A DNA stretch of 64,000 nt, taken from Synechococcus sp. MEDNS5 (GTDB lineage Bacteria > Cyanobacteriota > Cyanobacteriia > PCC-6307 > Cyanobiaceae). Below the pieces are notes generated by a model. It did not search any database, had not been told where the DNA came from, and was given only the letters and a program-made list of their open reading frames with translations. The stretch's first letter is position 1; the number at the start of each line of letters is the position of its first letter. The stretch covers positions 2,046,001 to 2,110,000 of the forward strand of contig NZ_CP047952.1 in the NCBI RefSeq assembly GCF_014279875.1, written 5' to 3'. Made by a program: the position numbers and the translations under genes. Below, in pieces: positions 54,741 through 58,391 of the stretch.

Positions 54741-55202
54741 TTGATCTGGAACAGGCCCTGGCAGGCACTACTGATGGCCTCCTTGGCCGTTGGCATCAGC
54801 ACGACAGCGATCGAGGCCAGGGCCGGACTGCTGAAGCCCTTGCTGCAGTTGATGCGCCCCAAGGTGGAGCAGCAGCTCGCAGGGGAATGCCAGCGGCTCG
54901 CCCAGCGGGCCATTGGCAGAATCGACACCAGTTCCCTGCCTGTGGGTGAACTGCTCTCCGGCATCGAGGAAACAGTTGTGCAACCCTGTCGTGACCTAGC
55001 GGTGCCAGCCAGTGAATGCTTGATCCGCGAAGCCTCGCGCAGCGGAAGAGAACTCGGCATCTTCAGTGAACTGATCAGCGGTCGTGTAGGCGACGACACC
55101 CAGGTGGTGATCAAACGCTGCCTGGCCTCTCTTCTGGGCTTGCCGGCCACAGGCCTTCAGGACCTTCCTCTCGAGGACTTGATGCTCCGGTTACGCCGGT
55201 AA
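54741..55202 (+). CDS. Secreted protein of unknown function
   Basis: 153 residues from the TTG at 54741, or 142 from the ATG at 54774. A hydrophobic stretch (ALLMASLAVGISTTAIEARA) is a signal peptide with cleavage near EARA. The mature part is helical with four cysteines (GECQRL, QPCRDL, SECLIRE and KRCLASL) that could form two disulfides. I do not recognise the family. Its end overlaps the convergent RibD-like gene by 46 bp. Confidence 0.65.
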   Translation: MIWNRPWQALLMASLAVGISTTAIEARAGLLKPLLQLMRPKVEQQLAGECQRLAQRAIGRIDTSSLPVGELLSGIEETVVQPCRDLAVPASECLIREASRSGRELGIFSELISGRVGDDTQVVIKRCLASLLGLPATGLQDLPLEDLMLRLRR

Positions 55203-55843
55203 CGCACAAGCAGCTCACCGCCGCCGAGAGGCTTGCTGTGCTCCAGCAACCAGGAATCAGCCGCGGCCAGGTTCTCAGGGAGTGCTGGGGCTGATGACGG
55301 AACCCAGCAGAAAGGACCACCAAGAACGCGCGGGCAGAGCGTGAGTTGCAGCTCGTCAACGGCATCGTCCGCCAGCATCGATGCGCAAAGACCAGCCCCT
55401 CCCAAGAGCACAACTCTCGACCAGCCACGGGCAGCCAAGCTGGCCAGAGACTCGGTCCAGGACGCAGCAAGGGGATGGCCATCGAGGAATCCTTCGGCAC
55501 TGCCGCCCTCCGGGGTGAGCAGGTAACGCGCAAAGGGCTGCTGAAAAAACGGCCAGTCCTGAGGGAAGTCCGCTTGGCGACTCACCACAAAAAGGTCGGG
55601 CTGTGGAGGACGGCACGCGGTTTGGCGCTGCTCAAGTAAATCCTGGTCATGAATCAGACAGCTGGAACGATGTGCCCGCAGCGTTCCAGCGCCGATCAAG
55701 GCCCCGTCCGACCAGGCCAAAGCTTCCTCTAAAGCCCTGCGATCACCGGGGCCACCAAGCTGGGAAGGGCCTCCCCGGGGATAGGCCAAACGTCCGTCCA
55801 GGCTGACGGCCAGCACCAGCCTGACTGTTGTCTGATGGGTCAT
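55157..55843 (-). CDS. RibD C-terminal-like (dihydrofolate-reductase-fold) reductase
   Basis: 228 residues. RLVLAVSLDGRLAYPRGGPS at the start and RVVLLGGAGLCASMLAD then VDELQLTLCPRVLGG near the end match the RibD_C/DHFR fold of pyrimidine reductases in riboflavin synthesis. The N-terminal deaminase domain of bifunctional RibD is absent, so this is either the separate reductase or a related NADPH enzyme. It sits 12 bp downstream of the pterin-synthase-like gene, hinting at a pterin or flavin context. Confidence 0.85.
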   Translation of the reverse strand: MTHQTTVRLVLAVSLDGRLAYPRGGPSQLGGPGDRRALEEALAWSDGALIGAGTLRAHRSSCLIHDQDLLEQRQTACRPPQPDLFVVSRQADFPQDWPFFQQPFARYLLTPEGGSAEGFLDGHPLAASWTESLASLAARGWSRVVLLGGAGLCASMLADDAVDELQLTLCPRVLGGPFCWVPSSAPALPENLAAADSWLLEHSKPLGGGELLVRYRRNRSIKSSRGRS

Positions 55844-55855
55844 CCAAGGACGCGA

Positions 55856-56776
55856 TCAGACCGGGGCGGTCGCTTCCAAGGTGGCTGGCGTCATTTCAAG
55901 TTGAGGCATCTCGGCGTACACCTCAGCCGCATTGTTGGGACTTTCCTGAAGGCGCACCTTGTGGAGCTGGGCACCGATGGCCCCCACTGGACCCGAAAGA
56001 CGGTCGGCGATGTGCAGGGCGATGTTTTCCGCGGTGGGCACGCACTCAGCGAAGAAGGGCACATCCTTGTTGAGAAAGGTGTGATCGAAGGGCTCCACCA
56101 CAAGATCATCCACAAGGCGCTGGAGCGCAGAGAGATCGCAGACCATGCCGGTGCGTGGATCGATGGCACCACGCACCGTCACATCCACCAGGTAGTTGTG
56201 GCCATGACCGTGAGGACGGGCACATTTGCCGTAGATGCGCTCGTTCTCTTCCTGGCTCAGCTCCGGTCTTGCCAGACGGTGGGCGGCAGCGAAGTGGGTG
56301 CGGATGGTGAGGAAGGCGTCCATGGGATGTCCGAGGTAGTCGGCCCAGAGGCCCGGTTGTTCGTAAAGGCGCAGTGCCGTGATCGGCAAATGCGGTGCAA
56401 GACGCTGCCAGATGCGGTGCACAAGCGCTTCGGTGGTCGGCAGGCAGCCTTCCGGCCTTGAGACATCAAAATCCGACCAGGCGTCGTTCAGGAATCGGAA
56501 ATTGAGCTGATCGGTGACCTCCTTGCGGATGGCGTGCTTCACCTCGGAGAGATTGAGCACCATGCCATCGGCATCAAGGCCACCAGCCATCGACACGATG
56601 AGCTCGTAGTTGTGCCCATGCCCGGGAGCCAGCGCACAGGCACCAAATCGCGCTGCGTTGTCATCAGCCGAAAGTTCCGGCAACCAGTAGCGATGACTGG
56701 CGCTGAAACAGGCTCGTCGGGTGATCACGCAACCGCGGCCCTGGCCGTGCCGGGCGATCGACTTCGTTTCAGTCAT
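55856..56776 (-). CDS. Tandem 6-pyruvoyltetrahydropterin synthase/QueD-like protein
   Basis: 306 residues made of two PTPS/QueD domains (about 16-145 and 153-290). Zinc histidines are present in both: His28 with His53/His55 (GHGHNYE), and His166 with His191/His193 (GHGHNYL). The catalytic cysteine is present in both (Cys47, Cys185). The catalytic Asp-His pair is Asp231-His232 in the second domain (PFDHTFLN), but the first has LNFRFLN at that spot, so Asp and His are replaced by Asn92 and Phe93. The second half is thus the likely active site. The product may be 6-carboxytetrahydropterin (queuosine route) or a tetrahydropterin; context does not decide. Divergent from aroK. Confidence 0.88.
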   Translation of the reverse strand: MTETKSIARHGQGRGCVITRRACFSASHRYWLPELSADDNAARFGACALAPGHGHNYELIVSMAGGLDADGMVLNLSEVKHAIRKEVTDQLNFRFLNDAWSDFDVSRPEGCLPTTEALVHRIWQRLAPHLPITALRLYEQPGLWADYLGHPMDAFLTIRTHFAAAHRLARPELSQEENERIYGKCARPHGHGHNYLVDVTVRGAIDPRTGMVCDLSALQRLVDDLVVEPFDHTFLNKDVPFFAECVPTAENIALHIADRLSGPVGAIGAQLHKVRLQESPNNAAEVYAEMPQLEMTPATLEATAPV

Positions 56777-57406: not shown

Positions 57407-57670
57407 TCAGCTCTGAGGCGGTTCCAGACGGACGGCATACCACTGCACGCAAACCCCTGGCGAGATCTCCAGTTCACAGGCGGTGTCGAGCAGGCGCTCT
57501 GCGGCTTCGGTTGCACCGTCGCATCCACGCAGATCCTCCGGCCATGGATCGAGAGCCACCAGTCGTTCAACCAGCCATGTCAAGGTGGCGGCCGCTGATA
57601 GAAGCTGTTCAGATTCACCGGGAACAAGCACCACGTAGTGATCAAGCGAGCGGATCAGGGGGTCTGACAT
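57407..57670 (-). CDS. Small conserved-looking protein of unknown function
   Basis: 87 residues from the ATG at 57670: MSDPLIRSLDHYVVLVPGES, then a helical region with TLTWLVERLVALDPWPEDL and a C-terminal strand VQWYAVRLEPPQS. No membrane helix. The start codon shares a CATG palindrome with the divergent gene at 57669. An ATG at 57703 is also open but would overlap that gene by 35 bp. No family recognised. Confidence 0.7.
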   Translation of the reverse strand: MSDPLIRSLDHYVVLVPGESEQLLSAAATLTWLVERLVALDPWPEDLRGCDGATEAAERLLDTACELEISPGVCVQWYAVRLEPPQS

Positions 57671-58391
57671 GAAGCGGTGGCTCTTAAGTGTGCTGTTCAC
57701 CATGCTGCTGCAGCTGTTGATGGTGATGGGTGCTGACGCTGCAGAACCAGCCCAGGCATCCCTGCTGGAGCAACGCGCGATGGAATGGCCCGAGTGGTCG
57801 CTTCCAGCACCTCTCCCCCGACCGCGTGCCCGTCAGGATCTGATTTATCCCGACTGGTTCGAGGGCGACTGGCAGGTGCAAAGCGACACGCTCGACCGTG
57901 ATGGTTCACGTCTTGAAAACGAATCCACGCTGCTGCACAAGGCACGCTTCCAGCGCAATCAGGCAGGACAGCTGGTGGGCGACCGAGCGTTCAACGCCAC
58001 GGCCATCGGCAAAGCGCTGCTGGGGGACAAGCTCCTGTCGGTCGAGCAGGATCCCGAGCGCGTGAACCGTCAGCTCGCAAGGCTCAGCGGCGATGTTCTC
58101 TTGGAGACCAGCGTGATCGGCCGCCGTCAGGCCGTGGTCTCAACAGACAGGGGCAGAGAAGAATTCTTGAGTGATGAGCTCGTGCTCCAGATCCTGCATG
58201 GCCCGGGAGCGCCCCGACTGAGCAGAATCGAAACGCTCACGCGCTACGAACAGTGCGGAGCCGAAATCTGCGCGGATCAGCTCCAGGTGAGTTACAAGGC
58301 TCCTGGGTTGCAGACGGATCAGACTCTGGCAGGGCGCAGCAGCCGATTTCGGCTGGTGCTCACTCGGTTGCCGCAGGATCCCGCTGTATGA
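57669..58391 (+). CDS. Secreted or lumenal protein, DUF6816-like
   Basis: 240 residues. Signal peptide MKRWLLSVLFTMLLQLLMVM with cleavage near ADAAEP, then RQDLIYPDWFEGDWQVQSDT, a motif common to a cyanobacterial family I associate with DUF6816. The rest is beta-strand-rich, consistent with a small barrel. A good ribosome site (AGGGGG, 6 bp spacing) supports the ATG at 57669. The 3' end overlaps the convergent GST gene by 32 bp. Location, thylakoid lumen or periplasm, is not decided by sequence. Confidence 0.75.
   Translation: MKRWLLSVLFTMLLQLLMVMGADAAEPAQASLLEQRAMEWPEWSLPAPLPRPRARQDLIYPDWFEGDWQVQSDTLDRDGSRLENESTLLHKARFQRNQAGQLVGDRAFNATAIGKALLGDKLLSVEQDPERVNRQLARLSGDVLLETSVIGRRQAVVSTDRGREEFLSDELVLQILHGPGAPRLSRIETLTRYEQCGAEICADQLQVSYKAPGLQTDQTLAGRSSRFRLVLTRLPQDPAV

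Follow-up and report, generated by a model that had tools for sequence, protein, structure and literature searches.

The gene at positions 55856..56776 (minus strand) of the window, the 64,000-nt stretch of the Synechococcus sp. MEDNS5 genome analysed here, encodes a two-domain synthase of the PTPS-II type. With moderate confidence, we propose that its second domain (D2) is catalytic and that its first domain (D1) is a non-catalytic partner which, standing beside D2, completes the ring and forms one portion of the D2 pocket wall. The enzyme would convert 7,8-dihydroneopterin triphosphate into 6-pyruvoyl-tetrahydropterin, towards tetrahydrobiopterin-type pterins, and the chemistry would take place in D2, with its zinc, Cys185, Asp231-His232 and Glu278. 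D1 would be a module fixed next to D2 within one ring, contributing to the wall of the D2 pocket much like bimodular QueF, in which a single active site is common to both modules. Residues of D1 such as Lys80 would then reach the D2 site or the interface, Cys185 may pair with the Asp-His of another D2, and the ring would hold an even number of domains. This kind of enzyme is already known, with assayed activity in a relative; what we think deserves follow-up is how the halves divide the work and how the one-, two- and three-domain forms are related.

The reading frame runs from 56776 to 55856 on the minus strand and specifies 306 aa, as an earlier note on this DNA had given it, and the two PTPS domains which that note saw on one chain are borne out by the Pfam PTPS model (PF01242), which matches twice (195.7 bits for the whole protein, 121.7 and 77.8 bits by domain). 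D1 extends over about residues 17-152 (56321..56728, minus strand) and D2 over about residues 155-290 (55907..56314, minus strand), the two being 33% identical. They are joined by a six-residue turn, residues 148-153 (56318..56335, minus strand), which in the AlphaFold2 model leads from the last strand of D1 to the first strand of D2. The site positions are H28, C47, H53, H55, N92, F93 and E139 in D1 and H166, C185, H191, H193, D231, H232 and E278 in D2. The residues had thus been read correctly: zinc histidines (H28/H53/H55 and H166/H191/H193) and a cysteine in both halves, Asp231-His232 in D2 only and Asn92-Phe93 in D1. The whole set of Cys, Asp-His, three zinc His and Glu comes together in D2, whereas D1 fails at the His.

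The earlier label of PTPS/QueD stands for the PTPS domains and falls for QueD. PTPS-II has been distinguished from QueD by the motif spacing CxxxxxHGH instead of CxxxHGH, according to a review (PMC5041015), and both MEDNS5 halves carry the longer spacing (C47-ALAPG-HGH and C185-ARPHG-HGH). In addition, seven QueD-like rows group apart from the PTPS-II rows (SH-aLRT 96, in a small set whose tree is rooted on them). Motif and tree together identify the protein as PTPS-II and rule out a QueD function, although the NCBIfam QueD model TIGR03367 gives 113.3 bits, above its cut-off of 89.25; a QueD model that passes its cut-off can therefore lead to a wrong pathway name. QueD (PTPS-I) shares the fold and differs in the motif. 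D2 is close to animal PTPS (E 6e-34 with the human enzyme, 3i2b, and 2e-33 with the rat enzyme, 1b66), with which it shares the zinc, Cys, Asp-His and Glu set, although animal chains contain one domain each. The genome's second PTPS homologue (L002, G000:C1:766117-766518, plus strand) has HGY replacing the HGH of the zinc motif and reaches 39.1 bits on the NCBIfam QueD model, far under the cut-off.

A dual-domain bacterial PTPS-II is already in print, as the title of Kong et al. (2006, FEBS Lett 580:4900) states, and the review credits PTPS-II of Synechococcus PCC 7942 with canonical PTPS activity in vitro, citing that work (PMC5041015). Primers for S. elongatus PTPS-2, checked on PCC 7942, are printed in another paper (PMC5227711). 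The forward primer matches genome G036, the reverse primer does not; in G146, a genome of the same genus, both primers find a match and enclose a 903-bp ORF of 300 aa, whose naming as S. elongatus PTPS-2 rests on these primers. The ORF has two PTPS domains in the same order as the MEDNS5 synthase and a first half that likewise lacks the His, with Asp-Tyr in D1, where MEDNS5 has Asn-Phe, and Asp-His in D2; there is no difference in kind. The architecture is thus known and tied, through the primers and the PCC 7942 assay, to the activity of a relative, and by analogy the MEDNS5 synthase presumably shares its 6-pyruvoyl-tetrahydropterin-forming activity. Our literature searches on bPTPS-II and on the catalytic Cys, His and Asp of PTPS returned no match, and we do not claim that the loss of half a site is unreported.

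How general is the difference between the halves? A PTPS-family match was found in 140 of the 146 genomes of a phylum sample, and tandem genes were obtained from at least 57 of them, the places being picked by long open frames among the matches listed. Once 7 identical copies had been removed, 127 distinct two-domain proteins and 7 three-domain proteins remained, 134 in all. The two-domain set is rich in close Prochlorococcus sequences, 61 proteins being left at <86% identity. Every two-domain protein (127/127) retains all seven D2 site residues (three zinc His, Cys, Asp, His and Glu). In D1, each of the three zinc His is kept in 124, the Glu in 124, the Asp in 115, the Cys in 102 and the His in none; its column holds F in 104, Y in 16, G in 3, N in 3 and C in 1. 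A half without the His is therefore built into the enzyme and is not decay in one strain. The absence of the D1 Cys (25/127) is unevenly spread: among the loci that we call picocyanobacterial (L004-L071 plus the query) both the Cys and a Phe at the His column are present in 66/66, and the Cys is retained in 36 of the remaining 61, a group that still includes some near kin of the window. The zinc ligands and the Glu are missing from D1 in only three proteins, all from one sampled family (f9), which may be Gloeobacter-like.

A scan for the gene in a species-genome collection confirmed 591 stretches, and the best 80, which were kept, give the same picture at closer range. Position 93 is Phe in 80/80, beyond what chance would give, and position 92 is Asp in 78/80 and Asn in 2/80, these counts referring to the 80 relatives in an 83-row alignment that includes the query three times. 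Asn92 is thus a local, minor change and the fixed change is the loss of the His. The D1 His loss is thus general, the Cys loss patchy and Asn92 local. The titles of these 80 stretches are all cyanobacterial except that of one bin named Bifidobacterium breve; there, the contig (L021) has cyanobacterial gene order, which likely reflects a binning or labelling error. A search of viral contigs for the synthase gave one distant relative, and a plasmid search gave 9 records, none reaching 80% query coverage.

We also searched D1 for an Asp/His pair at some other place. Apart from the zinc ligands, D1 has no universal His column among the 127 proteins; the next best are columns 81 (in 96), 129 (in 65) and 140 (in 55), so that a substitute for the lost His is at most possible. 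MEDNS5 itself has His81 and His129, and Gln at position 140, beside Glu139. The description of D1 as a dead-looking half holds in that D1 is the half from which catalytic parts have gone; among the 127 proteins, this extends to the Cys in 25 and to the zinc ligands and Glu in 3. The word dead is nevertheless too strong: R20, N75, S77, K80, W100 and E116 are each present in 134/134 first domains, those of the three-domain proteins included, and they persist in the three proteins without a D1 zinc site.

Two columns differ between the halves in the opposite sense, the more telling being that of Lys80. The Lys80 column is K in 127/127 D1 and K/R in 0/127 D2, and it is K/R in 47/48 free-standing homologues; animal PTPS has Lys there too (3/3 animal rows), which D2 has lost. 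The Trp123 column is W in 122/127 D1, aromatic in 1/127 D2 and aromatic in 47/48 free-standing homologues. The free-standing set (50 rows, two genes appearing twice, hence 48 distinct) is almost all QueD-like and comes from one phylum sample. In the single-domain cyanobacterial PTPS-II (3 rows, one gene appearing twice, hence 2 distinct), the Lys80 column is Arg in both, and the Trp123 column is Arg as well, not an aromatic residue, so a free-standing form can do without the aromatic. In a smaller set of 10 free-standing rows, 19 columns are fixed. Among these, neither half has kept the Thr at 140/279, and the aromatic at 121/255 has gone from D1 as well as from 27/46 D2; with so few columns, non-overlap of the losses between the halves can be chance. 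We therefore regard a reciprocal loss, in which D2 lacks what D1 keeps and D1 lacks the His that D2 keeps, as suggestive and not as proof. Alternatively, Lys80 may be an interface residue.

Why has a half without its catalytic His been kept? D1 might be a plain scaffold, a decayed copy maintained only for the ring and with no role in binding or catalysis. The stepwise character of the losses is what such decay would leave (His in 127/127, Cys in 25/127, zinc ligands and Glu in 3/127), and all 7 three-domain proteins, whose D1 is short of one zinc His, fit as well. We nonetheless consider this unlikely, because the zinc ligands and Glu survive in 124/127, because N75, S77, K80 and W100, which are D1-specific, are invariant in 134/134, and because D1 has a mean pairwise identity of 64% among 61 proteins, close to the 67% of D2. 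The near-constant zinc ligands and Glu, which also tell against the reading that we prefer, suggest that D1 itself binds something, and would allow that to be a different pterin.

Taken further, the same retention would make D1 an additional pterin site that does no catalysis and might, for instance, let the end product exert feedback; zinc and Glu139 would hold a ligand there without turnover. The invariable absence of the His agrees with this, and the Phe or Tyr that replaces it in 120/127 could stack on a pterin. However, the 7 three-domain proteins and the 3 proteins of family f9 have a broken D1 zinc site while the gene is still present, so that a site of this kind cannot be a general requirement; we judge this explanation quite improbable. 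Finally, the halves might swap parts, the Asp-His of D2 completing the zinc, Cys and Glu of D1 in trans, so that D1 would host the active site. An intersubunit catalytic triad in PTPS is announced in the title of Burgisser 1995, and the D1 Cys is present in 66/66 of the picocyanobacterial set. Its disappearance from 25 of the other 61 proteins, set against a D2 Cys in 127/127, rules out a trans-completed D1 site as a general rule and makes the idea as a whole very improbable indeed. We therefore keep to a catalytic D2 assisted by D1, for which there are precedents among fused T-fold domains. In bimodular QueF of E. coli and V. cholerae, which belongs to another family and performs a nitrile reduction, the fused T-fold domains rely on one another, the active site between them drawing necessary residues from both modules (PMC5372742). 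Plant GTP cyclohydrolase I, a different enzyme with the same fold as the synthase, has two tandem T-fold domains neither of which works alone (PMC6411382, citing Basset 2002). If the halves of the synthase share one site, it would join these two as a further interdependent T-fold fusion.

The AlphaFold2 model (residues 9-291, 29 rows) has a pLDDT of 93.8 and a pTM of 0.89. In its own numbering, strands 135-139 (the last of D1) and 146-158 (the first of D2) flank the six-residue turn at 140-145; strand 1 finishes with the first zinc His, and strand 2 begins with the other two. The linker, which connects the end of strand 4 to the start of strand 1, therefore lies opposite the zinc end of the sheet, and the fused pair should share one ring. 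PTPS is a dimer of three-membered rings, and in the rat enzyme the His comes from another subunit than the Cys, with the site near the trimer-trimer interface. Tandem T-fold chains such as uricase place both of their domains side by side in one ring, that of uricase being built of four domains from two chains. Since side-by-side pairs require an even number of domains per ring, a three-membered PTPS ring cannot be tiled with them. The earlier suggestion that three fused chains could form the hexamer is accordingly opposed by the six-residue linker and the side-by-side model, and two chains per ring, as in uricase, would be expected from the model.

Comparison of the model with known structures was carried out at two levels. 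By VIA-align, the whole two-domain model lies on uricase with Z 12.8 (224 residues, rmsd 4.1) and on GTP cyclohydrolase IB (GCYH-IB) with Z 11.6 (208 residues, rmsd 4.8), both tandem T-fold chains with 5-11% identity to the synthase and other reactions. Foldseek also ranks uricase and GTP cyclohydrolase IB chains, with a poor TM of ~0.4, and superposes uricase badly (TM 0.36-0.43, rmsd about 8-11). The single domains of the model fit PTPS (Z up to 18.6) better than the whole chain fits tandem T-folds. The Foldseek matches listed include archaeal QueF-like rows; bimodular QueF is absent among the 50 structure matches listed by Foldseek and VIA-align, which excludes nothing.

The phylogeny of the halves that the earlier note had called for was run as a quick tree of 125 domains and 142 columns, in which many forks are unresolved and some branches are long. 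It places D1 and D2 in separate groups: one holds every D1 and also the first domain of each three-domain protein (SH-aLRT 100), the other every D2, the second and third domains of the three-domain proteins and the single-domain form from two genomes (SH-aLRT 94). The simplest reading of this tree is that one duplication preceded the split of the sampled cyanobacteria and that D2 was later duplicated again in family f7. The three-domain PTPS proteins (L116-L122, frames of 430-439 aa) come from 7 genomes of that family and consist of a D1 that has lost one zinc His and, after it, two domains of D2 type whose sites are complete; the middle domain has the QueD-type CxxxHGH spacing. Two genomes of one genus have a single-domain PTPS-II beside the two-domain one (L134 and L185, 171-aa frames, L187 and L188). 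This series of one, two and three domains offers a test case of how the size of a T-fold ring follows domain fusion. A fuller scenario, which we put forward only tentatively, would be that reciprocal loss made the two halves into one interdomain site, that fusion forced an even-numbered ring and that, once D2 had been duplicated again, a three-domain chain could close a ring by itself.

With respect to the pathway, a RibD_C-family reductase (55157..55843, minus strand) starts 12 bp past the stop codon of the synthase and is likely co-transcribed with it. Among the best 80 of 591 stretches, a RibD_C homologue lies on the same strand ≤105 bp downstream at 68/80 loci; at 2 others the distance is 2.2-2.4 kb, and for the remaining 10 no homologue was found. 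A 380-aa frame elsewhere in the MEDNS5 genome gives a stronger RibD_C match, so the reductase next to the synthase is probably not needed for riboflavin; it is possible that it reduces the pterin made by the synthase. No match to a biopterin-dependent hydroxylase (PF00351) was obtained in the MEDNS5 genome, and the sepiapterin reductase model gave nothing above cut-off in MEDNS5 nor in any of 14 control genomes, which makes it uninformative. Elsewhere in the neighbourhood, a CRR7-family gene (57407-57703, minus strand) and a DUF6816 gene (57669-58391, plus strand) are divergent, and their starts overlap as listed.
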